Shown here piece after piece: positions 2,313-36,058 of a DNA stretch of 37,284 bases (position 1 is the stretch's first letter; the number at the start of each line of letters is the position of its first letter). The stretch lies in NCBI GenBank assembly GCA_009694965.1, contig SIBV01000003.1:1-37284 (forward strand), read 5' to 3'. The DNA is from Candidatus Zambryskiibacteriota bacterium (GTDB taxonomy: Bacteria > Patescibacteriota > Minisyncoccia > Phycocordibacterales > DATDWN01). The notes beneath the pieces were generated by a model, which saw only the letters and a program-made list of their open reading frames with translations, was not told the origin of the DNA and did no database searches. The position numbers and the translations under genes are program-made.

Positions 2313-2900
2313 ATGATTGGCTACCTAAAGGGCACGTTACTGCATCAAGACTTGAAGTCTGTGATTCTTGATGTAGGAGGTGTGGGCTACAAAATCTATA
2401 CAAATACAGCCTTTTTGTCTTTGCCGAAGCTTGGCCTCGGCGATAAATCATATAAGGCGCAAGCTTCGACAGCATTCTGGACGTATTTAGCTGTTAGAGA
2501 AACTGCACTCGACCTGTATGGTTTCAACACAAAAGACGAGCTACATTTCTTTGAACTACTTATTTCTGTTTCTGGTATTGGGCCAAAATCTGCAATGGGA
2601 ATACTCTCGATTGCATCCGTTCAAAACCTCAGGCATGCCATTGTATCAGGAGACACAAGTCACCTTACAAAAGTTTCTGGTATAGGAAAAAAGAACGCTG
2701 AAAAAATTGTGATTGAACTCAAAGATAAACTAGAAGGTCTGAGTACTGACATGACGGAATCCATGCATGGTGATGTTGACGCTATTGAAGCACTCAAAGC
2801 TCTAGGTTACGGTGAACGTGAAGCGAGAGAAGCTTTGAAAAAAGCTGAGGGAGAGACCACAGAAAAGAAAGTTCGGTCTGCATTAAAAAAATTATCATGA
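2313..2900 (+). CDS. ruvA: Holliday junction branch migration protein RuvA
   Basis: MIGYLKGTLL..VILDVGGVGYKIY..., HhH region SGIGPKSAMGIL / SGIGKKNAEKIVIELKDKL, C-terminal domain AIEALKALGYGEREAREALKKA. Confidence 0.96.
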   Translation: MIGYLKGTLLHQDLKSVILDVGGVGYKIYTNTAFLSLPKLGLGDKSYKAQASTAFWTYLAVRETALDLYGFNTKDELHFFELLISVSGIGPKSAMGILSIASVQNLRHAIVSGDTSHLTKVSGIGKKNAEKIVIELKDKLEGLSTDMTESMHGDVDAIEALKALGYGEREAREALKKAEGETTEKKVRSALKKLS

Positions 2901-3012
2901 TACTAATATACGAATGTAACGAATGATACGAATGGTTACGAATAAGAAAAATCAAGAAGCATTCATTCGTAGACATTTGTAGATTAGTATTATTCGTATA
3001 TTCGTATGTTTA
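2896..3012. repeat. TACGAAT-type palindromic repeat, copy 1
   Basis: ATATACGAATGTAACGAATGATACGAATGGTTACGAAT...CATTCGTAGACATTTGTAGATTAGTATTATTCGTATATTCGTATG; ends about 10 nt before the mutM ATG. Confidence 0.85.
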
Positions 3013-3021
3013 ACTAAAACT

Positions 3022-7758: not shown

Positions 7759-10105
7759 TTTCTTCCATCTCTCCCCAATTATTACCTACTGAAGCATTTG
7801 TCTCACACACAATTCCACTAGCCTTTTTAGGATCAACTATTGACTCCATTATTTTTTTTATCTCTGGAACTACTGACTCCACGATGTTGTCTTTGATCTC
7901 ATAAACTAATTCATCGTGAACCTGAAGAAGGAGTCTAACATCCTTTTCTAAATTCTTTCTGGTAACAAACTTATCAACTTCAATCATAGCTAACTTCACA
8001 ATATCTGCTCCAGTCCCTTGGACAGGCGCATTGATTGCCATTCTCTCAGCTGACGCTTTCATAAAAGGTAGTTTCGAATGTATATCAGGAAAGTATCTTC
8101 TTCTTCCGAAAAAAGTTTCGGTATAACCTTTTTGCGTTGTTTCTCTTTTTACATTTTCAAGATACTCCGCGAGCCCAGAAAACTTGTTGAAATAACCGTC
8201 CAGAAACTGCTGTGCCTCTTCACGGCTTGTTCCAATATTTTTCTGTAGGGCTGTGACTCCCATTCCGTACATAACTCCGAAGTTTATAACCTTGGCTTTT
8301 ATTCTCATGGTCTTGGTCACCTCCCTCATAGGGACTCCAAAGACCTCACTTGCAACTGCCGTGTGGACATCTAGACCCTCCTTAAAAATCTCAATCAGCT
8401 TTTTGTCGCCAGAGAGAAAGGCAGCAATTCGGAGCTCCATCTGTGAGTAATCAAATGAAACCAGCTTGTAACCCTTTTCGGCGACAAATGACTTTCGAAT
8501 TTCTCTGCCTAAATCAGTCTTGTTCGGAATGTTTTGTAAGTTCGGATTTTGACTCGCCATTCTACCTGTGGCAGAACCTGCTTGTAGAAAATCGGAGTGT
8601 AAGCGATTTTCCTTATCCACTTGTGTTGGAATAGTATCAATATAGGTTCCCAGTAATTTCGACAATTCTCTATATTCCAAAACAAATGAAGCGATAGGAT
8701 GTTCCTCACGAAGCTTTTCTAATTCTGACTCTTTGGTGGAAAATCCCCCACTCGCTGTTTTCTTCTGATTCTTTGGTTTCAATCCCATCTTCACAAAAAG
8801 CATTTCACCTAGTTGTTTTGGTGAACTAATATTAAATTCCCCCCCGACAATCTTCCATATTTTTTTCTCAAGAGACGTTAGTTCCTTGTGGTACTCTTTG
8901 GACAACACTTTTAGTCGCTCAACATCTACTTTTATGCCAACCTCATTCATTTTCTTTGTGATTGGCAAAAGGGGCTTTTCTATTTCTTCATACACAAAGG
9001 AAATGCCTTGGTCTTTTATTGTTTTCTCTAAATTGATCCGGGCTTCCGCCAATGTGTTTGTTCGAGTATATGACAAAATATCATTCAAATCTGGAGTGGT
9101 TTTGTTCGAATCAACTACCCAAAGCATAAGTCCCACCTCTCTTATCTCTTCTGGGTCCTCCTCTTTCAATATAGATTCCGGAACTTCTAGCGAAAGAACT
9201 TCAGCGATTTTCGCACCAAGTTGTCTGAATTCAAACTCAATGAACAGCTCCTGAACCTTCTTCATGTCTATATCATCTCTCCACACCTTTTCGGGAATAG
9301 TGAAATGTATTGGAGCATCTCTCCTAATAGTTGCGAGCATTTTGGAGAAACTTGCTTCCTCCTCACCAGCTTTAAGAAGTTCCACTATTCTTTTTTTGAT
9401 ACCCGCTTTTTCAAAAGCCTTTTCGTCCTTTTTCAGTTTCTTATATATGTCTTCAATCGAACCGAAGTTAACGATGAGGTCTGTTGCGGTTTTCTCTCCA
9501 ATTCCTGCAATGCCTATTATGTTATCCGACGGATCTCCTCGTAGTCCTTTGTAATCCGGTAATAGTTCAGGACCAAAACCAAATCTCTCCTTTACAGCAT
9601 CCTCATTATAAATAATCGTATCTTTTATGCCTTTTTTCAGAGTATAAACCTGAACCTTATCACCCACAATTAGCTGCATCGTATCCATGTCGCCTGACGC
9701 AATAAAAATATTGAGATCCTTCTCGTCCTTCATTTTTTCAACGATAGTTCCCAACATATCGTCTGCCTCAAATCCTCTGGACGAATACATAGGAATATCC
9801 ATCGCCTTGAAAACATCTTTGGATCTCTCTAGTTGCAAAACTAATGCATCATCTGTTTTCTTTCTTCCGTCTTTGTATCCATCATAGACATCATGTCGAA
9901 ATGTTCCTCCTTCCAAGTCGTAACAAGCGACGATATAATCTGGCTTCAAATCTTTTACGAGTTTTATAAGTAGTGTGCAAAGTCCATACAAAGCTCCTGT
10001 TGGTTCACCCTTGCTTGATTCGAACTCCGGCAACGCATGATAAGCCCTATGCAAAATAGCATGTACATCAAGTAATGCGAGGATTTTATGTTTTGATTTA
10101 GGCAT
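7751..10105 (-). CDS. polA: DNA polymerase I (5' nuclease plus polymerase, reduced middle domain)
   Basis: 5' nuclease (LLDVHAILHRAYHALP..GFEADDMLGT..GDPSDNIIGIAGIGEKTA) and family A polymerase motifs (DYSQMELRIAA, RIKAKVINFGVMYGMG, QVHDELVYE). Confidence 0.96.
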   Translation of the reverse strand: MPKSKHKILALLDVHAILHRAYHALPEFESSKGEPTGALYGLCTLLIKLVKDLKPDYIVACYDLEGGTFRHDVYDGYKDGRKKTDDALVLQLERSKDVFKAMDIPMYSSRGFEADDMLGTIVEKMKDEKDLNIFIASGDMDTMQLIVGDKVQVYTLKKGIKDTIIYNEDAVKERFGFGPELLPDYKGLRGDPSDNIIGIAGIGEKTATDLIVNFGSIEDIYKKLKKDEKAFEKAGIKKRIVELLKAGEEEASFSKMLATIRRDAPIHFTIPEKVWRDDIDMKKVQELFIEFEFRQLGAKIAEVLSLEVPESILKEEDPEEIREVGLMLWVVDSNKTTPDLNDILSYTRTNTLAEARINLEKTIKDQGISFVYEEIEKPLLPITKKMNEVGIKVDVERLKVLSKEYHKELTSLEKKIWKIVGGEFNISSPKQLGEMLFVKMGLKPKNQKKTASGGFSTKESELEKLREEHPIASFVLEYRELSKLLGTYIDTIPTQVDKENRLHSDFLQAGSATGRMASQNPNLQNIPNKTDLGREIRKSFVAEKGYKLVSFDYSQMELRIAAFLSGDKKLIEIFKEGLDVHTAVASEVFGVPMREVTKTMRIKAKVINFGVMYGMGVTALQKNIGTSREEAQQFLDGYFNKFSGLAEYLENVKRETTQKGYTETFFGRRRYFPDIHSKLPFMKASAERMAINAPVQGTGADIVKLAMIEVDKFVTRKNLEKDVRLLLQVHDELVYEIKDNIVESVVPEIKKIMESIVDPKKASGIVCETNASVGNNWGEMEEID

Positions 10106-10112
10106 GTGAAAA

Positions 10113-10220
10113 AATTTTCAGTTTTCAATTCTCAATTTTCATTGAATTTTCAATGAATTAATTTTCAAAATTGGAAATTGCAACATTGATTGAAAATTGC
10201 AAAATTGATAATTGAAAATT
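10113..10220. repeat. TTTTCAATT-type palindromic element, copy upstream of polA
   Basis: AATTTTCAGTTTTCAATTCTCAATTTTCATTGAATTTTCAATG...CAACATTGATTGAAAATTGCAAAATTGATAATTGAAAATT. Confidence 0.85.
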
Positions 10221-11636: not shown

Positions 11637-11819
11637 AACTTTTGTAACTTATACTTTTTAGAGACTTGCGAGGTAGGGCGGAGGGAGCACGAGGTGAGAA
11701 GTGATATTATCACTTCGTAAAACCTTGAGCATCCTTAAATGCGAAAGGTGTACTGCTCCTGTAAGGAGGTTTCTAGCAAAAAAATATCCGTACTCTTAAA
11801 AGCATAAGTTATAAAAGTT
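11637..11819. repeat. 183-bp inverted-repeat-bounded element carrying the CCTTGAGCATCCT..GGTGTACTGCTCCTGTAAGGAGG motif
   Basis: AACTTTTGTAACTTATACTTTTTAGAG (11637-11663) pairs with 11793-11819 with 3 mismatches in 27; inner motif also found inverted at 16918-16975. Confidence 0.75.
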
Positions 11820-13515: not shown

Positions 13516-13629
13516 AAGAAGCTATATTAATGTCAATTCTAGACATTGCATAACCTTTGAGTTCTATTGTAAAACTTGCTTGCCGAATGCGATTCTATGC
13601 CTATAATTGAAAGTAGAAAACAGTTTGCA

Positions 13630-13750
13630 AACTTTCAGATTTGAGCCAAGTTCAAGGCGAAAGACTTGAAAAAGTACGAGTCGTATTAGATATACGATGA
13701 GGATTTTTGAGAGTCTTTCAACGAAGAAATTGGCCAAATATGGAAGTTTG
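13630..13750. repeat. long-hairpin element, copy 1
   Basis: AACTTTCAGATTTGAGCCAAGTTCAAGGC[GAAAGACT..AGTCTTTC]AACGAAGAAATTGGCCAAATATGGAAGTT; homologous to 19090-19210. Confidence 0.8.
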
Positions 13751-13918
13751 GCTCCAAAGCATAAATCTCTAAGCAACACTTTTAATAGTAGATACCAAAA
13801 GCTAAGTATTTTACAAAGGATAATTCCAGTGTATTACACAAGGTAATAACCAGAACGTCCTCGCAGAAAGACTCGTAAACGTAAACGCTTAGTTGCTTAG
13901 AGATTTATATTTTGGAGC
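13751..13918. repeat. 27-bp inverted repeat flanking about 114 bp
   Basis: GCTCCAAAGCATAAATCTCTAAGCAAC (13751-13777) / GTTGCTTAGAGATTTATATTTTGGAGC (13892-13918), 2 mismatches. Confidence 0.8.
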
Positions 13919-17149: not shown

Positions 17150-19027
17150 TTAATTTCTCAGCATTTTCAAAAACACGTCCTGTGGAATGTCGACAGTCCC
17201 TCGGCCTCTTGCCTTCATCCTCTTCTTTCCCTTCTTTTGCTTTTCACGAAGTTTCATTTTTCGAGTGATGTCCCCTCCATACATATGCTGAGTCACATCT
17301 TTACTGAAAGCTGAAACTGTGCGACTGGAAATAATTCTACCCAACGCTTTTGCCTGAACCTTCATCACAAACATTTGGCGAGGAAGGAGCGCATGAAGTT
17401 TCTCAACCATCATTTCCGCTTCTGTTTCGACAATCCTTCTAGATACAACTCTAGAGAACGCGGGCAATACCTCATCAGCAACTAGAATATCCATTCTCAC
17501 AACATTAGCATCTCGCATTCCTTCTATCTCATAAGAAATAGAAGCGAAACCACTCGATGCACTTTTCAATTTATCAAAAAAGTTTCGCATAAGTTCACGA
17601 AGTGGCATTTTCAAAAATAGTCTCGTTCTATCATCTCCAAAGTTTTCTGAGTCCCCTAGTTCTGCCTCATGTTCATAAAGAAGTGGCATTAAATTAACTA
17701 GAAACTTTACTGGCGTAATAATAATACAGTTTACCCACGGCTCTCGTATTTCCGAAAGTAATCCTTCATCAGGAAAATGTGCAGGCGAATATATAGTCTC
17801 CATTTGTCCCGCCTTTGGTCCGCTTTTATAAACTACTTCATAAGTAATAGTCGGCATAGTCACCACTAGATCTAGATTGAATTCTCGATGAAGTCTTTCT
17901 GAAATAATTTCTAAGTGAAGCATCCCTAGGAACCCGCAACGAAACCCTCTTCCCAAAACTCCTGATGATTCTTCTTCATATGTATAAGAAGAATCAGACA
18001 ATTTCAGCTTTCCTAAGGCCTGCTTAAGACTCACAAAATCATCCTGACTCTCTGGGTAGATTGACGCCCACACGACAGGACGAGGAAGCATATAACCCTC
18101 AAGCGGCACACTGTTGTCACCAACAGTACCAACAGTGTCTCCAACAGAGGCGATGCCTGGCTCCTTTATTCCTGTTACAATATAACCAATTTCTCCCGCA
18201 CTGAGAGTTTCCACTGGAACTTCGCCTGGCGAGAATATGCCTACTTCGATTGAGTTAAATGTTTCTTTTGCAATTTTGAAAACAAGCGGAGTATTTCGAG
18301 AAACTTTTCCTTCCATCACGCGCACGAAAACAATAACTCCTCTGTGAGTAGAATATTTGAAATCAAAAATTAGAGACTTGAAGCTGTTGCCTTCTACCAT
18401 CCTTGGAGCGGGAACTTTCTTGATAACTTCACGAAGTAAATCATCAACACCTTCACCAGTTTTTCCTGATGTGTATAAAATATCTTCTGGACTACATTCA
18501 AGTAATTTAATCACTTCCATTTTTACCTCCTCTACTCGAGCTAAAGGAGAATCCACTTTCGATAAAACTGGAATGATGGTGAGTCCTGCTTCCCTCGCCA
18601 TTCCAAGGGTAGTCAACGTTTGAGCCTGAACACCTTGGGTTGAATCAACCAAAAGAATCGAGCCTTCTACCGCTTTTAAGGCTCGAGAAACTTCATATGA
18701 AAAATCTATATGCCCCGGTGTATCTATCAAATTCAGAATGTATTCTGAATTTGAATTTTCAATTTTTAATTTAGAATTTTCATTGGAAACTGAATCATTG
18801 ATTGGAAATTGAGAATTGGAAATTGGAAATTTTGGTCGATAGACCATCCTCACAGGTTGCATCTTGATAGTAATCCCTCTCTCTCGTTCAAGTTCCATTG
18901 AGTCAAGGACCTGTTCCTGCATTTTCCGTTTTTCTATAGTGCCGGTTAGCTCAAGCATTCTGTCAGCTAAAGTAGATTTACCATGGTCTATGTGGGCGAT
19001 GATACTAAAGTTTCGAATGTTTTCCAT
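17150..19027 (-). CDS. lepA: elongation factor 4 (LepA) with a repeat-derived insertion
   Basis: MENIRNFSIIAHIDHGKSTLADRMLE...LNLIDTPGHIDFSYEVSRALKAVEG; ~29 extra aa KFPISNSQFPINDSVSNENSKLKIENSNS before EYILNLIDTPGH. Confidence 0.96.
   Translation of the reverse strand: MENIRNFSIIAHIDHGKSTLADRMLELTGTIEKRKMQEQVLDSMELERERGITIKMQPVRMVYRPKFPISNSQFPINDSVSNENSKLKIENSNSEYILNLIDTPGHIDFSYEVSRALKAVEGSILLVDSTQGVQAQTLTTLGMAREAGLTIIPVLSKVDSPLARVEEVKMEVIKLLECSPEDILYTSGKTGEGVDDLLREVIKKVPAPRMVEGNSFKSLIFDFKYSTHRGVIVFVRVMEGKVSRNTPLVFKIAKETFNSIEVGIFSPGEVPVETLSAGEIGYIVTGIKEPGIASVGDTVGTVGDNSVPLEGYMLPRPVVWASIYPESQDDFVSLKQALGKLKLSDSSYTYEEESSGVLGRGFRCGFLGMLHLEIISERLHREFNLDLVVTMPTITYEVVYKSGPKAGQMETIYSPAHFPDEGLLSEIREPWVNCIIITPVKFLVNLMPLLYEHEAELGDSENFGDDRTRLFLKMPLRELMRNFFDKLKSASSGFASISYEIEGMRDANVVRMDILVADEVLPAFSRVVSRRIVETEAEMMVEKLHALLPRQMFVMKVQAKALGRIISSRTVSAFSKDVTQHMYGGDITRKMKLREKQKKGKKRMKARGRGTVDIPQDVFLKMLRN
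18753..18832. repeat. TTTTCAATT-type palindromic element inside lepA
   Basis: GAATTTTCAATTTTTAATTTAGAATTTTCATTGGAAACTGAATCATTGATTGGAAATTGAGAATTGGAAATTGGAAATTTTGG. Confidence 0.85.
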
Positions 19028-19089
19028 GAGCCTTATTAAAGCACAAAAAGGGTTAATTCCAAATAAAAATTAATCGGTGTCACCTTAGA

Positions 19090-19210
19090 AACTTTCACAA
19101 TCTGGATGAAGTTCAAGGCGGAATGAAAAAATGTGAGGAGTCTTACTCGTTGTAAGATGACGAGAATTTTTTATATTCCAACGCAGAAATTCGCCAGATT
19201 TGGAAGTTTT
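19090..19210. repeat. long-hairpin element, copy 2
   Basis: AACTTTCACAATCTGGATGAAGTTCAAGGCGGAATGAAAAAATGTGAGGAGTCTTAC..GTAAGATGACGAGAATTTTTTATATTCCAACGCAGAAATTCGCCAGATTTGGAAGTT. Confidence 0.8.
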
Positions 19211-20888
19211 ATGTTAACTCGGCGTCTGGGACGACTATTTTGGCCCGCCATATCTTCTTCCTGAAAGTATCAACTGCTTCAGATAACTCCTTACTTCCCA
19301 ATGTATACAGAACAACAATTCCCACTATAATTCCTGCTATACCAGCCAAAAATCCTTGGAGGAATATACCGTACAAAGTGTTTATATCGAAAACTTTATC
19401 TAGAACTGCTAAGCCTTGGTAGGTTACAAAACCCATTATGATAGAAGCTGAAAAAACTTCAAAGAGGGTTCTCCAAACTGCTGGCGAGAATGCTTTGTAT
19501 TCCCTACTGAAACCTATCCAATGAATGATAAGGTTTACAACAACTCCTATTGAGAATCCAAAAGGAAGCATCAAAATTGTTGTGCCGGGCAAGTCAGATA
19601 CTTTCAAGATTGACTCCATAAAATGACGGAAAAATATATTGTCATCAAAGAGTCTGGCCAGTCCAAAACTTCCTACAACAATAAGAACGGCTGACAATAC
19701 GTTTATAACAAGTGGCGTCCAAGTCTTTCCTTGGGAATAGTAAGCTCTGACAAAAAGTGCTACGAGGTTTTGTGCGACTAGCGAAACCACAAACAAGGCG
19801 AGTGCCGCCGCCGTGAGTCTCGTATCTTCCCAATTAAACTTTCCAGCTCCAAGGATTGTTCTCACTATCTGCGCGCGCAATACTATGAAAAGTATAGTGA
19901 CAGGCACGGACCAAAATATTATATGTCGAGCAGAGATTATCATTTGCTCTAAAAACTTATCTTTCTCCCCTGCTGAAAAAAGACGAGTAAGGGATGGAAA
20001 AGCAGCTAGAGAATAACTCACACCAATAATACTGAAAGGGACTGATTGAAGATTCAAAGCAAAACTAAATACGGAAATTGACCCTGGCACAAGAAAAGAA
20101 GCAAAAGAAATCAAAAACAGTTTTGCAATTTCATTAGCAGAAACTGTTATGGTGCGAGGAAGAGATATGAGGATTATGGTTTTTATTGAACCCCATTTTA
20201 TTGGAAACGTAAATCTTGGTAGCATTCTTTGAGAAGCAATAAACGGAACTTGTATCCCAAGATGCAAAAGCGCTCCTAACGCTACTCCAAACCCAAGTCC
20301 CGGCAAACCCATCTTTGGATATAAAAATACAATACCTGTAATGATTCCTATGTTATAAACAACTGGAGAAATCGCGTAGACCAGAAATCTTCTGTGTATT
20401 TGAGTTATACTCGCCAGCAAATTAGAGAGACCTAAGAATATTGGTGAGAGAAGCAGTATTCTGGAAAGGATTACAAGTTCAGGAAATCTTGAAGAATCAG
20501 CAAAGGCAGGAAACAAAACTTTCATTAGATATGGAGTAGCAAAAAATGCAACTAACCCCACAAAGATCATCAAGCAAAAGAAAAAAGTGAAAACTGTATT
20601 TATGAAATCCTTAGCCGCCTCTTCACTCTTCTCAAACCTTTCGATGAGAAACGGAATCAGAACTGAAATCGAAATAATAGACGCGACCGACACAAAAAGA
20701 ATGTCAGGTATTCTGAAAGCTGAATAATATAAATCTAGTGTGCTACCTGCCCCGAACTGTCCAGCCAGGATTCTGTCTCTAAACAGTGCCAAGATCTGTG
20801 AACATATAGCAAAGAAGCCTAAAAGATAAGCGGCCTGATGAAGGCCGGATATCTCAATGTTTAGTATGTTCAGAAATCTTTTTACCAT
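19209..20888 (-). CDS. murJ: lipid II flippase MurJ / MviN family
   Basis: QAAYLLGFFAICSQILALFRDRILAGQFGAGSTLDLYYSAFRIPD.., ~14 TM segments, RAYYSQGKTWTPL. Confidence 0.93.
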   Translation of the reverse strand: MVKRFLNILNIEISGLHQAAYLLGFFAICSQILALFRDRILAGQFGAGSTLDLYYSAFRIPDILFVSVASIISISVLIPFLIERFEKSEEAAKDFINTVFTFFFCLMIFVGLVAFFATPYLMKVLFPAFADSSRFPELVILSRILLLSPIFLGLSNLLASITQIHRRFLVYAISPVVYNIGIITGIVFLYPKMGLPGLGFGVALGALLHLGIQVPFIASQRMLPRFTFPIKWGSIKTIILISLPRTITVSANEIAKLFLISFASFLVPGSISVFSFALNLQSVPFSIIGVSYSLAAFPSLTRLFSAGEKDKFLEQMIISARHIIFWSVPVTILFIVLRAQIVRTILGAGKFNWEDTRLTAAALALFVVSLVAQNLVALFVRAYYSQGKTWTPLVINVLSAVLIVVGSFGLARLFDDNIFFRHFMESILKVSDLPGTTILMLPFGFSIGVVVNLIIHWIGFSREYKAFSPAVWRTLFEVFSASIIMGFVTYQGLAVLDKVFDINTLYGIFLQGFLAGIAGIIVGIVVLYTLGSKELSEAVDTFRKKIWRAKIVVPDAELT

Positions 20889-23407: not shown

Positions 23408-23896
23408 TGTTGGATAAGTGCTCTTTAGCTATTTATAGCTAAAGGGAGGAAAGTCCGAACATCAAGTTTAGATTTATCTAAACAAGAGTAGCGGGTAACG
23501 CCCGTCGGGAGTAATCCTAGAGGTGCGAGCAGTGACGTCCGAGGCGAAAGCCAGAGAATTCCGCTGCGTTAAAGCAGATGGAATAATTTTATGGAAACAT
23601 AAAAGTGAAACGGCAAAATCCTTACTTTGATGCAAGGCCGTACCCGACTGCACCTCACTGGGTTCAGTGCAGAATTTTCAATTTTCAATTTCTAATTTTC
23701 AAACAATTCTCAATGTATCAAAGGGGAATTAATTCATTGAAAACTGAAAATTAGAAATTAGAAATTCTGTCCGAGCAAAGCGAGGTGCAGTTGGGGGTGC
23801 CGCTTGATCACCGTGGTAACACGAGCGACAGATAAATACTTATCGTCGAGCACCAGTTCTGGTGCTCGATACAGAATTCGGCTTATAGACACAACA
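23408..23896 (+). ncRNA. rnpB: RNase P RNA carrying an inserted palindromic element
   Basis: CR-I GGGAGGAAAGTCCGAACA, ACGGCAAAATCC..GATGCAAGGCC, GCTTGA, 3' ACAGAATTCGGCTTATAGAC; TATAAT at 23392-23397. Confidence 0.93.
23672..23766. repeat. TTTTCAATT-type palindromic element inside rnpB
   Basis: GAATTTTCAATTTTCAATTTCTAATTTTCA...TGAAAACTGAAAATTAGAAATTAGAAATTC. Confidence 0.9.
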
Positions 23897-25241: not shown

Positions 25242-25281
25242 ATTTTATTAACCAACCCTCATCTCTCTACCCTTCTTACAT

Positions 25282-25306
25282 TATGGCAAGGTTAAACCTT
25301 GCCATA
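25282..25306. repeat. REP-like hairpin, left flank of RAYT
   Basis: TATGGCAAGG-TTAAA-CCTTGCCATA. Confidence 0.85.
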
Positions 25307-25333
25307 TGAAGAAAGAAAAACTATAATATACAG

Positions 25334-26011
25334 ATGACACGTTCAACCACAATCTCAATTGATGAATTTTATCACGTTTATAATAGGGGTACTGAGAAAA
25401 GAAAAATATTTAACACACGGTATGATTACGAACGTTTTATAGCTCTTCTCTATCTGTGCAACTCTACTGAACCAATACGCATAAGAAGTAAGTACTTAAA
25501 TGAAATGCTTGATACTAAGCGCGGTAAAAAACTAGTAGACATTGGTGCGTACTGTCTCATGCCAAATCACTTTCATCTTTTGTTATACGAATGTGTTGAG
25601 GATGGCACCAGTCTGTTTATGCAGAAACTAACAACAGCCTACACGATGTATTTCAATAAGAAAAACGATAGGGTTGGAAGTTTGTTTCAAGGTACATTCA
25701 AAGCTGAGCATCTAGACGATGATGAATATTTAAAATATATTTTTGCATACATTCACTTGAATCCTGTTAAACTTATTGAACCTAAATGGAGGGAGGATGG
25801 GATCAAAAACCGCACTGGAGCAAAAAACTTTTTGAAAAATTATTCATATTCAAGTTACTCAGAATTTACCGGAGTCGACAGAAAAGAAAAAGTCATCCTC
25901 TCCCCTACTGCCTTTCCAAAGTATTTTGAAAAGGTGGATGACTTTCAAAAAATGATTAACTTCTGGATCGAGTTCAAGAATGAATACCTTCTGCCAGAGA
26001 AAGAAATCTAA
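25334..26011 (+). mobile_element. Y1/HUH transposase of the RAYT (REP-associated tyrosine transposase, IS200-like) family
   Basis: DEFYHVYNRGTEKRKIF..., HUH motif MPNHFHLLL, AYIHLNPVK Tyr region, C-terminal YSSYSEFTG; flanked by REP-like hairpins. Confidence 0.93.
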
Positions 26012-26019
26012 AAACTAGA

Positions 26020-26048
26020 AGTATGGCGAGGTTTAACCTCGCCATACT
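26020..26048. repeat. REP-like hairpin, right flank of RAYT
   Basis: AGTATGGCGAGG-TTTAA-CCTCGCCATACT. Confidence 0.85.
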
Positions 26049-26114
26049 ATGAGGGAGAAGGTGTTTTGGTAGACCAATTATTTGGACCAATTATTTTTTT
26101 ATTTTACAGACCGA

Positions 26115-27665
26115 CTATTTTAATAACTCAAGAGTAATTTTTCGGATCAGTTCTGGATTGCCAGCGCCTTTCATCGCCTTCATACCATGGCCTACAAAAA
26201 AATGAAGGAGTGATTCTTTGCCGGCTTTGTAGCCCGCAACACTCTCGGGGTTAGTGGTGATTATTTCTTGCATAACTGCTCTAAGCTCTTCTGAATCATT
26301 TTTCTGAATCAATCCTTTCTCTTTTGCAATCACTTCTGGACTTCCGCCGACTACATACATTATTTTTAAAACATCCTTTGCTCCACGTGATGACAAGTCG
26401 CCACTTTTAATCATAATTATTAAACTTACAAAATTTTCAACTTCAATAAGTCCCAAAGAAAACTCATTTCCAGCAACTTTCGAAAGTCCGATAATATCTG
26501 ATGTAATGTAATTTGATGCAGACTGAACAATTTCTGAGCCTTGAGCTATTAATTGTTTGGAAACTGTTTCAAAGAAATTACACGCTTCCCTATTGTTTAT
26601 GTATGTCTCGATATCCGAACTCTTTAGACCAAAATCTTTTGAGAACCTTTCTCTCTTTTGTTGAGGTAGTTCTGGTATTGATTTTTTTATTGTTTCATAA
26701 TCAAATTCTGGAATTTCTGAAATAAATATCTTTGGTAAATCAGGTTCAGGGAAATATCTGTAGTCATGAGCGGACTCTTTTGCTCTTTGACTGAAAGTCA
26801 CACTTTTGTTTTCATCCCACCCGCGGGTTTCCTGGATCACCTTTTCTCCCTTTTCCAAAATTGATTTTTGTCTTTCGAATTCAAAATCAATAGCCTTTCC
26901 AGCAGCTCGGAAGGAGTTTATATTTTTTACCTCCACTTTCGTCCCTAATTGGTCATTGGACATTGGAACTTGGGATTTATTGACGCTTATATTCACCTCA
27001 ACTCTCATTTCCCCTTTTTCCATGTTGGCATCAGATACTCCTAAATATTGAAGAAGTAGTTGAAACTCTCTGGCAAAATTCATAGCATCAACACTTGAGT
27101 GAATTACAGGTTCTGTAACTAATTCCATCAAAGGCACCCCTGCTCTGTTATAGTCAACTAAAGAATTTTCAGTTCTCAATTTTGCAATTTTCATTGAATT
27201 TTCAATGTTTGAATTTTCATTGGAAATTGACTCATTGAGATTTGATTGGAAATTGGAAATTGGAAATTGTGAATTAGCCCCACTGTCATGTATCGATCTT
27301 GCAGTATCTTCTTCAAGATGGATGCGAGTTAAATCCACTCCGTCAATAGAGCCCCCAGAAACTAGAGGGTATTTATACTGACTTATCTGATACCCTTTTG
27401 GGATATCAGGATAGAAATAGTTCTTTCTATCGAACTCAGTAAAGTTGGCGAGCTTGCTCCCTACAGCCACCCCCACAGACAAAACCTTTTTAATGGCCTC
27501 CTTGTTTATAACAGGGAGCGTCCCAGGGTGACCCATACATATTGGACAGATATTTGCGTTTGGAGACTTTTCTTCTGGATCGTTTTTACATCCACAAAAC
27601 ATTTTACTCTTTGTTTTGAGTTCAGCGTGAATCTCGAGACCAACTGTTATCTTATAATCTGACAT
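26115..27665 (-). CDS. gatB: aspartyl/glutamyl-tRNA amidotransferase subunit B with a repeat-derived insertion
   Basis: YKITVGLEIHAELKTKSKMFCGCKND...NICPICMGHPGTLPVIN...; ~38 extra aa ANSQFPISNFQSNLNESISNENSNIENSMKIAKLRTEN between SIHDSG and SLVDYNRAGVPLMELVTEP. Confidence 0.96.
   Translation of the reverse strand: MSDYKITVGLEIHAELKTKSKMFCGCKNDPEEKSPNANICPICMGHPGTLPVINKEAIKKVLSVGVAVGSKLANFTEFDRKNYFYPDIPKGYQISQYKYPLVSGGSIDGVDLTRIHLEEDTARSIHDSGANSQFPISNFQSNLNESISNENSNIENSMKIAKLRTENSLVDYNRAGVPLMELVTEPVIHSSVDAMNFAREFQLLLQYLGVSDANMEKGEMRVEVNISVNKSQVPMSNDQLGTKVEVKNINSFRAAGKAIDFEFERQKSILEKGEKVIQETRGWDENKSVTFSQRAKESAHDYRYFPEPDLPKIFISEIPEFDYETIKKSIPELPQQKRERFSKDFGLKSSDIETYINNREACNFFETVSKQLIAQGSEIVQSASNYITSDIIGLSKVAGNEFSLGLIEVENFVSLIIMIKSGDLSSRGAKDVLKIMYVVGGSPEVIAKEKGLIQKNDSEELRAVMQEIITTNPESVAGYKAGKESLLHFFVGHGMKAMKGAGNPELIRKITLELLK
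27163..27275. repeat. TTTTCAATT-type palindromic element inside gatB
   Basis: GAATTTTCAGTTCTCAATTTTGCAATTTTCATTGAATTTTCAATG...ATTGGAAATTGGAAATTGGAAATTGTGAATT. Confidence 0.85.
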
Positions 27666-27677
27666 ATGTAGATAATT

Positions 27678-28643
27678 TTACAGTTTTTCTAAAATCTTTA
27701 CCAATGAATCGCTTAAATTCTTTACTGATGCATCATCGATAATAGATAGGGACAAAACGTTTTCGTGGGTTTTTTGGAATAGTTTAATGTGTGATTTTAG
27801 AGTCTTTTCGTCAATCAGATCAATTTTTGTTAGCAAGACAACTTCGGGTTTTTTCAAAAGTTCTTTATCATAAAGTGAAAGTTCCTTTCGGATAGTTTTG
27901 TAAACAGCCAAAGGTTTTTCATTTTCACTAGAAATACAGTGAAGAAGCATTTTGGTTCTAGCAATGTGTCGAAGAAACTTGTGCCCCAACCCCTTTCCCT
28001 CGTGAGCCCCTTCTATAAGTCCTGGTATATCTGCAATAACGAAACCATACAAATCTCCTAGGTTTGGTGAAAGTGTAGTGAATTGATAACTTCCAACTTT
28101 TGCTTTGGCCCGAGTCAAGGAATTCAGTAAACTTGATTTTCCGGCATTTGGTAGACCGACAAGTCCCAAGTCAACGACTAGTTTTAATTCAACAAAAAAC
28201 TCTCCGCCCTGTCCAAGCTTTCCTCTGGTAGACTCTTGAGGCTTAACGTTTGTTGGTCCTTTGAAGTGGTCGTTTCCATACCCTCCCCATCCACCCTTCA
28301 AAAAGAATATCGTCTCTTCATTCAAGATCTCAACTTCTTCAAGAGTTTCTGTATTTTTTACAACTGTGCCAATAGGCAACTCAATGGTTATATCTTTACC
28401 AGATCTTCCGTGCATACATTTACCTCTCCCTTTTTGACCATCTTCAGCTTTAAAATCTTTTATGAACTTATACTCGGCCAGTCTTCCAATATCGTGAACG
28501 CCTTTGAGATAGACACTTCCGCCCTTACCACCGTCTCCTCCCCCAGGACCTGCATGGTCAATACCCTTCTCATGCTTCCATGAAACTATGCCGTCCCCTC
28601 CGTTTCCAGCCCATATATTGAGTGTTAATTCATCTATAAACAT
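27678..28643 (-). CDS. obgE: Obg/CgtA family GTPase
   Basis: MFIDELTLNIWAGNGGDGIVSWKHEKGIDHAGPGGGDGGKGGSVYL...GLVGLPNAGKSSLLNSLTRAKAKVGSYQFTTLSPNLG...ADIPGLIEGAHEGKGLGHKFLRH. Confidence 0.97.
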   Translation of the reverse strand: MFIDELTLNIWAGNGGDGIVSWKHEKGIDHAGPGGGDGGKGGSVYLKGVHDIGRLAEYKFIKDFKAEDGQKGRGKCMHGRSGKDITIELPIGTVVKNTETLEEVEILNEETIFFLKGGWGGYGNDHFKGPTNVKPQESTRGKLGQGGEFFVELKLVVDLGLVGLPNAGKSSLLNSLTRAKAKVGSYQFTTLSPNLGDLYGFVIADIPGLIEGAHEGKGLGHKFLRHIARTKMLLHCISSENEKPLAVYKTIRKELSLYDKELLKKPEVVLLTKIDLIDEKTLKSHIKLFQKTHENVLSLSIIDDASVKNLSDSLVKILEKL

Positions 28644-28661
28644 GAGCTCATGTTATCACAT

Positions 28662-28749
28662 AATTTTCAATTTACAATTCTCAATTTTCAATGAATTTTC
28701 AATGAATTAAAGGGTTTTTTGGAAATTGTAAAATTGAAAATTGAAAATT
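28662..28749. repeat. TTTTCAATT-type palindromic element upstream of obgE
   Basis: AATTTTCAATTTACAATTCTCAATTTTCAATGAATTTTCAATG...GGAAATTGTAAAATTGAAAATTGAAAATT. Confidence 0.85.
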
Positions 28750-28839
28750 TTTTTTTCAATTTTAGTGAAAAAATAGTTATCCCCAACATAGAAATTTGCA
28801 AAAAAATTACAATCTGGTACAAATATGGAAATTCCAATA

Positions 28840-28952
28840 CGAATATGCGAATGAAACGAATAATGCGAATGTATACGAATAAATACAATCCGTTTTCTAT
28901 CATTCGTAGCCATTCGTAGCTTGGTATTATTCGTTAATTCGTATATTTAATT
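28840..28952. repeat. TACGAAT-type palindromic repeat, copy 2
   Basis: ATACGAATATGCGAATGAAACGAATAATGCGAATGTATACGAAT...CATTCGTAGCCATTCGTAGCTTGGTATTATTCGTTAATTCGTATATTTAATT. Confidence 0.88.
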
Positions 28953-28960
28953 AAAAAATT

Positions 28961-32949: not shown

Positions 32950-33066
32950 TAGATAAACATACTAATTAACGAATAGAGAAATAATATGAATGACTACGAA
33001 TTAGAGAATTAAAAATTTTATTCGTTGCCATTCGTATATTTGTATTGTTCGCATATTCGTATATTT
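32950..33066. repeat. TACGAAT-type palindromic repeat, copy 3
   Basis: ACATACTAATTAACGAATAGAGAAATAATATGAATGACTACGAATT...TTATTCGTTGCCATTCGTATATTTGTATTGTTCGCATATTCGTATATTTATT. Confidence 0.82.
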
Positions 33067-33069
33067 ATT

Positions 33070-34170
33070 TTATTTGTTCATTGGCATAACAAGGTATAGA
33101 AACGACTTATCATTAACCCCTCTTATCACCATCGGTTTATTGTTGTCAGAAAAACTTAAAGATATACTATCTGCATCAATCGCTTGAAAACAGTCTATAA
33201 TGTACTTATGATTAAAGCTTATTATTATTTCCTCTCCCTTCACTACAGCTTCTAGGTTGTTTACATTTTCCCCCACATCCATATTTTTGGTTGTAATTTT
33301 GAAGTTCTTGTCTTTTGGCGAAACATGGAAAATAACCTGACTAAACTTATCTGCAAAAATATTGGAAATACGGAGTCCGCTTATTAAATCTTGTTTCAAA
33401 ACTACAACCTCTGTTTTTATATCCTTAGGAATAATTTGCTTATAATCAGGAAAAACACCATCAATAACCCTGGATGTTATATATAAATCATTGTGAGAAA
33501 ATGCTATTTGGTTGTCATTTAGAAAAACCTCAACATCGTCTTTTATATCATCAATCGTTCTAATTATTTCTCCAACATTTTTAAAAGGTATTAATATTTG
33601 ATTGAATTCTTTGTGTTTTTTGGCTCCTATTCTTTTTTCAGCAAGTCTAAATGAGTCAGTGGCAGCAAAAACCACATCATCTTCATCTGAAGCAACTAAA
33701 ATACTAGCTAAAACTGGACGGATAGTAGAAACAGAGGAACTATATAAAACCGCTTTAAAGCCTTTTATTAAACCAGCAACATTAAATGTAAAAGGTTTAT
33801 TACTCACTACTTTTGGGATATTTGGAAAATCATCGACTGGAAAAGCTTTAATGAGTGATTGTGAGTGTTTTGTAGAAACTTTTAGGTTTCCTTCAACTAC
33901 TTCTAAATTTATATTTTTATCATTGGTTATGTTTGAAATAAAATTATATAAAACAGACCCAGAAACAGCGATGCTTCCAGGTTTAATAACTTTTACTGGA
34001 ATACTTATTTCTATTCCTAAATCTAAATTTGTAGCTTTTATAATAAGAGTTGAATTTTTTGCCTCAAGTAAAATACAATTTAATATTGGCAGTGTTATGT
34101 TTTTACCTGTAATTCTTTCTGCTTTACCTATCGCATAAGCCAACTTATCTTTGATACATTCTATATTCAT
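33070..34170 (-). CDS. dnaN: DNA polymerase III sliding clamp (beta)
   Basis: MNIECIKDKLAYAIGKAERITGKNITLPILNCILLEAKNSTLIIKATNLDLGIEISI...; C-terminal YLVMPMNK. Confidence 0.96.
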   Translation of the reverse strand: MNIECIKDKLAYAIGKAERITGKNITLPILNCILLEAKNSTLIIKATNLDLGIEISIPVKVIKPGSIAVSGSVLYNFISNITNDKNINLEVVEGNLKVSTKHSQSLIKAFPVDDFPNIPKVVSNKPFTFNVAGLIKGFKAVLYSSSVSTIRPVLASILVASDEDDVVFAATDSFRLAEKRIGAKKHKEFNQILIPFKNVGEIIRTIDDIKDDVEVFLNDNQIAFSHNDLYITSRVIDGVFPDYKQIIPKDIKTEVVVLKQDLISGLRISNIFADKFSQVIFHVSPKDKNFKITTKNMDVGENVNNLEAVVKGEEIIISFNHKYIIDCFQAIDADSISLSFSDNNKPMVIRGVNDKSFLYLVMPMNK

Positions 34171-35817: not shown

Positions 35818-35914
35818 CATACGAATGATGCGAATGTATGCGAATAATACAACCAAATCATAATTCTATTCGTAGTCATTCGTAGATTCGCATTATTCGT
35901 TAATTCGTATATTA
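35818..35914. repeat. TACGAAT-type palindromic repeat, copy 4
   Basis: ACATACGAATGATGCGAATGTATGCGAATAATAC...ATTCGTAGTCATTCGTAGATTCGCATTATTCGTTAATTCGTATATTAAATT. Confidence 0.88.
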
Positions 35915-35920
35915 AATTCA

Positions 35921-36058
35921 ATGTCTCAAACATACCAACCAAAAAAGAGAAAGAGAGCGAAGTCACACGGTTTTCTAGCTAGAAGTAAGTCAAAAACAGG
36001 CAGAAACACTATTTTAAGAAGAAGAAGAAAGGGTCGGGCTAAACTGAGTACAGTCTAA
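35921..36058 (+). CDS. rpmH: 50S ribosomal protein L34
   Basis: Manual translation [45 protein letters not shown] (45 aa, below the ORF-track length). Confidence 0.96.

Follow-up and report, generated by a model that had tools for sequence, protein, structure and literature searches.

A hairpin element of about 121 nt dispersed through Patescibacteria genomes is conserved in shape and oriented with its 3' end toward gene edges

The stretch of DNA analyzed here (the window), 37,284 nucleotides of contig SIBV01000003.1 from a Candidatus Zambryskiibacteriota bacterium, carries two copies of a single hairpin element of about 122 nt, both on the + strand. The first copy, w1 (13629..13750), lies between a type II/IV secretion ATPase gene (T2SSE, PF00437; 11821..13515, + strand) on its 5' side and ruvB (PF05496 and PF05491; 13952..15115, + strand) on its 3' side, and is among the minority of copies without gene-edge contact according to the flank analysis. 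The second copy, w2 (19089..19210), sits between lepA (PF06421 and PF00009; 17150..19027, - strand) on its 5' side and the lipid II flippase gene murJ (PF03023, E 1.2e-62; 19209..20888, - strand), and its 3' end abuts and overlaps the TAA stop codon of this opposite-strand gene. The original prediction had described two copies with common ends and internal segments, and with differing stems that are self-complementary in each copy; these features are indeed present at both positions, and the placement near ruvB is correct for w1.

Both copies have strongly folding + strands (w1, -51.2 kcal/mol, z = -9.4; w2, -44.6 kcal/mol, z = -6.6), with 0 of 200 shuffles as good in either case. Two covariance models were used for the searches, namely R1, built from six copies of the window's own genome, and the broader R2. 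With R1, w1 scores 95.3 bits (E 1.8e-21) and w2 137.5 bits (E 1.5e-32), w2 itself being part of the model and all E-values being rough because of a short calibration; with R2, w1 scores 112.5 bits. The 3' 72 nt common to w1 and w2 also emerged from a repeat search of the window as family D8, at 71% identity. Directly 3' of w1 stands a different hairpin of 168 nt with 27-nt arms (13751-13918), which is 92% identical to L125:8575-8741 of genome G010 and was found once in each of these two genomes.

Read from the base, the element has an outer arm of about 9 bp followed by a second helix. Internal loop 1 separates these from a variable middle stem, above which internal loop 2 leads into an apical helix of 7 bp, closed by a loop of about 5 nt. 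The predicted fold of w1 places internal loop 1 at 13654..13658 (5' side, AAGGC) and 13720..13725 (3' side, AACGAA), and internal loop 2 at 13676..13679 (5' side, ACGA) and 13699..13702 (3' side, GAGG), where G-A mismatches flank one central C-G pair that covaries among copies (alignment columns 68-186). Fold and alignment together define the apical hairpins, both on the + strand with a 7-bp helix and a 5-nt loop: GTCGTAT/ATACGAT in w1 (13680..13698) and GTCTTAC/GTAAGAT, with GA/GA flanks, in w2 (19140..19158). Across the copies, internal loop 1 reads TTC-RAGGC / AACGNAG-AA, or TCGCGTAT / AGACGATGA in one subtype. In internal loop 2, a short Watson-Crick helix is enclosed by tandem G-A mismatches (GA-G-GA with GA-C-GA, GA-TCG-GA with GA-CGA-GA, or xA-C-GA with GA-G-GA). 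Covariation is seen in the middle pair of this helix (GC 40, CG 21, UA 6); the G-A pairs may be of sheared geometry. A box C/D or kink-turn reading of this loop was rejected, since the alignment has the G-A pairs in symmetric tandems without a 3-nt bulge. The ends are AAACTTTC/GGAAGTTT or GGACTTAC/GTAAGTCC; outside the window's family GGAC/GTCC ends dominate, and the outer pairs vary. Terminal inverted repeats are thus present, the outer helix being 91.4% paired in 79 copies. Shorter or composite hairpins at L075:14267-14365 and L081:4368-4540 have the outer arms of the element and a different interior (GTACTCYYGTGGTG core), and are possibly a sister family.

The compensatory change around fixed motifs that the original prediction read from two copies holds throughout the family. 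Among the six copies from the window's own genome, 92.6% of alignment cells are paired and 16 pairs have changed on both sides (0 of 500 shuffles; slid controls 28-51%). In the alignment of 79 copies, 90.6% of cells pair and two-sided changes occur in 42 of 43 pairs (731 cells), giving a covariation score of 0.611 vs 0.185 when shuffled and at most 0.121 when slid. In a second alignment, with 28 of its 29 copies from outside the window's family, the score is 0.630 vs 0.215. Both covariation alignments were model-fitted, which favors the structure, but model fitting alone does not account for the covariation, as the slid controls and the raw folds of individual copies indicate.

Several features distinguish the two strands. 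The + strand folds better than its complement in every listed copy, a wobble pair is kept at three positions in many copies, and G-A mismatches far outnumber T-C. From these three features we conclude that one strand is the folded one, and the bias fits recognition of the element as a folded single strand, as far as sequence comparison can tell. Elsewhere in the element G-U pairs are rare, at 2.4% of standard pairs vs 6.2% in tRNAs of the same genomes. This scarcity leaves single-stranded DNA, or copying from arm to arm, as serious alternatives to RNA.

The distribution of the element was followed within Patescibacteria. In the window's own assembly, which is 87% complete, blastn recovered 7 additional copies. 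R1 gave 45 matches genome-wide in the same genome, a few of which are the same copies on the other strand, and R2 listed 47 copies in the 460 kb fetched of this Zambryskibacteria relative. The element was found in 11 of 11 same-genus and 5 of 5 same-family genomes searched, in at least 81 of 384 genomes of the class and in at least 40 of 380 of the phylum, the last two counts being lower bounds because 9 candidates were scored per genome. Its length is nearly always 117-126 nt from genus through phylum; exceptions are shorter matches, in a few genomes, that lack the outer arms, and a small number of longer copies, including three of 196 nt with an insert. A lack of further homologs, or of covariation support, had been named beforehand as evidence that would speak against a repeated hairpin of about 120 nt. 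The covariance-model search of Patescibacteria genomes proposed at the same time succeeded, and homologs and covariation are both abundant. No Rfam family matched at the gathering score, E-value scans giving only weak unrelated hits, and no paper naming such a repeat in Parcubacteria was found. A blastn search with one class-level copy as query returned no plasmid or phage homologs, and three exact patterns of the element had no hit in IMG/VR, for which reason a virus-borne origin was rejected. The element looks like a variant of the dispersed palindromic repeat, belonging to an undescribed family.

The copies are placed at gene edges in a fixed orientation. Docking was counted with simple open reading frame rules, using frames of at least 100 codons and an interval of -8 to +10 nt around the stop. 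By this measure 61 of 102 copies have the 3' end at the stop codon of an opposite-strand gene and the mirror arrangement occurs in 1 of 102, with random positions giving 1.6%. In a further 14 to 17 copies the 3' end is located just upstream of a sense start codon. The class-level set, which has a few genomes in common with the first, shows the same tendency (docked 14/29 vs mirror 2/29; random 2.4%), and the 4 copies read from other classes all abut a TAA. The docked stops are TAA in 40 cases, TAG in 20 and TGA in 1, where TGA ends 8-11% of genes in the two genomes compared. At L082:7745-8188, rpsN is flanked by two elements with the 3' ends of both toward the gene. Neither the docking nor the strand specificity formed part of the original prediction.

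Comparison between relatives reveals both turnover and upkeep. The murJ orthologs end at the same place in 11 of 11 congeneric genomes, none of which (0/11) has the element there, whereas in the window's genome w2 begins at the murJ stop codon; elements thus come and go. Many sites of this genome are empty in G010 and some hold another or a diverged copy. At L134:14565-14717 of G010, a complete element of one subtype is immediately preceded on its upstream side by the 5' remnant of a second subtype, and it is this second subtype that occupies the same gene end in the window's genome, an apparent case of turnover at one site. Copies at unrelated loci are up to 91% identical (median 0.66), from which we conclude that the family spreads. 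At the same time, the copy downstream of rpsN, common to G003, has 9 pairs changed on both sides that are still Watson-Crick, and four syntenic comparisons together hold 27 such two-sided changes. Separate insertions of a single subtype may account for one or more of the syntenic pairs, which leaves the argument for compensation in situ resting mainly on the sites downstream of rpsN and at a gene of 105 amino acids.

A mobilizing agent was sought among the proteins encoded by the same genomes. Genes for Y1 transposases occur in 39 of 61 relatives and in the window itself (25334-26011), where the gene lies between its own palindromes of TATGGCAAGGTTAAACCTTGCCATA type (25275-26053), an IS200-like unit resembling a REPtron or TIRtron. 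The suggested link between the number of hairpins and a transposase is unsupported, because PF01797 (Y1_Tnp) was not found in four element-rich genomes, G003 (29 copies), G006 (31), G011 (8) and G015 (45). Mobilization by Y1 transposases or by RAYTs, the Y1 transposases associated with repetitive extragenic palindromes (REPs), was rejected on this ground, and likewise a reverse transcriptase (PF00078), which does not track copy number either. Integrases (PF00589) are typically present as one protein per genome with or without the element, integron-specific models not having been run, and none was found in the window's own incomplete assembly; an extra integrase was therefore dismissed as the agent. 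An origin as a gene cassette was also rejected, since the stop codons are ancestral at empty sites. No pair of matching arms enclosing a transposase was detected in the fetched parts of two genomes, only short related hairpins.

Genomes thus hold many copies, present or absent from species to species, that preserve shape over sequence, are strand-specific and dock by the 3' end at the edges of coding regions. We consider it probable, on balance, that they constitute a phylum-wide family of short, non-coding, non-autonomous dispersed repeats, similar to REPs and to miniature inverted-repeat transposable elements (MITEs), with a fixed length of about 121 nt and two conserved internal loops, recognized as a folded single strand. 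A trans-acting enzyme would read the hairpin by its shape, as single-stranded DNA or RNA, and insert its 3' end at a gene edge. Many inserted copies would later be kept paired because, located in the 3' (sometimes 5') untranslated region, they could affect expression as REPs near stops do. An inserted element accounts better than a purely host-owned one for presence and absence, dispersal and the fixed orientation of docking. For the compensation at syntenic sites, a host role or copying from arm to arm is a better match than a dead insertion; in combination these observations favor a shape-recognized, non-autonomous mobile element that is often retained by its host. A bolder version is put forward tentatively: the element would be a solitary attC-like hairpin read by shape alone, which a single-strand mobile system of a new type inserts precisely at gene ends, which has persisted across Patescibacteria and whose pairing hosts keep as a gene-end regulatory structure.

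Several observations weigh against a mobile element of this kind. None of the transposase, reverse transcriptase and integrase families tracks it. About a quarter of copies (27/102, and 12/29 in the class-level set) occupy neither gene-edge position. Recent identical copies are absent in the two genomes compared, and there is no clear target-site duplication, symmetric TA..TA being observed 8 times against 13.3 expected. Finally, syntenic copies keep their pairing, which is unexpected for a purely selfish insertion. This last point, together with the position at stop codons and the bracketing of rpsN by two copies, would suit an element that serves the host and is not primarily mobile, a hairpin in the untranslated region that stabilizes mRNA, serves as an RNase III cleavage site or delays ribosomes at the stop, as is reported for E. 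coli REPs lying no more than 15 nt from a stop codon, with selection setting position and pairing. That REPs near stop codons reduce translation in E. coli (PMC12306157) is in line with such a role. We nevertheless judge it unlikely as the whole account: the mRNA of the docked gene carries the reverse complement, i.e., the worse-folding strand, an orientation fixed 61 to 1 is needless for a simple mRNA hairpin, and at most sites a congener has either no element or one of another subtype. If the pairs were instead rewritten from one arm to the other by replication slippage (template switching), perfect pairing would arise without function, and the Watson-Crick double changes with few G-U intermediates would be expected. 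Copying alone would, however, erase the mismatches, wobbles, loops and length that persist, which makes it very improbable as the sole cause; it could act in addition to selection.

Two known recombination systems and the ordinary sources of hairpins have also been weighed. An attC-like site, marking cassettes or solo insertions by means of a folded single strand and a tyrosine recombinase, is attractive in that attC sites keep shape, not sequence, and are recognized only as a folded strand (PMC4792948), and the folded strand of the element likewise runs antisense to the neighboring gene, immediately past its stop. The AAC/GTT end triplet required by attC is not universal in the element, though, the integrase count is indifferent to it, and the adjoining genes are housekeeping genes with ancestral ends (murJ, rpsN) instead of cassettes, so this explanation appears improbable. 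We hold equally little with a REP/RAYT-type element moved by IS200-like Y1 transposases. It would account for palindromic, dispersed copies close to gene ends and could draw on the Y1 genes of many relatives, the window included, but these genes are missing from the four element-rich genomes mentioned above, that of the window is flanked by different palindromes, and the element has no GTAG-type tag and is far longer than a REP. The hairpin shape and the location after stop codons could also suggest ordinary intrinsic terminators or AT-rich palindromes arisen by chance, but these hardly deserve consideration. Chance is ruled out by the fold z-scores of w1 and w2, the fixed length and the covariation, and termination by the separate T-run, terminator-like hairpins that follow the element at several loci, the usual lack of a T run after the element itself and its fixed orientation.

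Among known bacterial repeats, ERIC/IRU (127 bp), NEMIS/Correia, RUP (107 bp), YPAL/RU-2 (168 bp) and RPE are non-coding, MITE-like sequences of 100-200 bp (PMC2229807). Like these, the element is dispersed between genes with filled and empty sites in relatives, and the transcripts of MITE-like repeats form long stem-loops as well (PMC2229807). The MITE features found here are many short intergenic copies, terminal inverted repeats and filled or empty sites (the murJ site and the G010 comparison); the fetched parts of two genomes yielded no autonomous relative with matching ends. Each of the known MITE-like repeats is, moreover, described as a sequence family from a single genus or family, and most have TA ends and target-site duplications, whereas the element keeps shape and length phylum-wide, without a duplication having been found, and has one folded strand with its 3' end toward a gene. 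REPs are 20-40 bp long with a GTAG or CGTC tag (PMC3733652), and for 260 of 496 REPs of E. coli the distance to a stop codon has been proposed to be short enough for an effect on translation (PMC12306157). The element resembles them in being palindromic, dispersed and located at stop codons, but measures about 121 nt, is untagged and has no matching Y1 gene. With attC (PMC4792948) it has in common the conservation of shape rather than sequence and what appears to be one folded strand, antisense to the gene it follows; it differs by the absence of a universal AAC/GTT triplet, by core-gene rather than cassette neighbors and in that no integron integrase was found with the general PF00589 model. 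Tests on REP and attC features therefore make it a member of neither family, attC-like though it is in strand and shape reading and REP-like in its stop-codon position. TIGR arrays (TIGR-Tas), which have Parcubacteria among their known hosts, contain variable yet consistently palindromic stems around fixed motifs (PMC12045711), as does the element. However, these are arrays with box C/D motifs and spacers beside a Tas gene (Tas was not searched for here), while the element is mostly solitary and dispersed, with symmetric G-A tandems.

Other repeats accompany the element in the same genomes. Another dispersed family, likewise structured and about 80 nt long (core ACCTTGA..GAAAGGTGTACNGNTCCTGTAAGGA), has no Rfam match. 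About 24 copies were counted across the fetched portions of two genomes, among them two in the window (11692-11767, + strand; 16977-16909, - strand) and others at L111, L106, L113, L075, L132, L129 and further loci. The 196-nt copies of the main element (L111:7154-7349, L075:14004-14199 and L106:5142-5337) belong to three subtypes, and each has an insert of this family at much the same position, just 3' of the apical helix (GGTGA); the family may preferentially insert into the main hairpin. A palindromic repeat rich in ACGAAT/ATTCGT has four intergenic copies in the window (2900-3019, 28837-28956, 32956-33074 and 35821-35922), and similar stretches occur near L082:6126 and L113:1972 and downstream of rpsN in G010. 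Another intergenic palindromic repeat, of low complexity and of TTTTCAATTTTCA / TGAAAATTGAAAA type, has copies at 10089-10220, 18742-18834, 23670-23770, 27141-27271 and 28638-28749 of the window.

Dispersed bacterial palindromes are usually recognized by their sequence within one genus. The element described here has kept its shape and length throughout a phylum of ultra-small bacteria and fills about 1% of a reduced genome of about 0.5 Mb. Any mechanism must explain the docking rule, by which the 3' end lies at a gene edge, antisense after the stop. Discovery of the enzyme would reveal an insertion system that reads shape; were the elements to serve the host, they would represent a phylum-wide gene-end element absent from Rfam.
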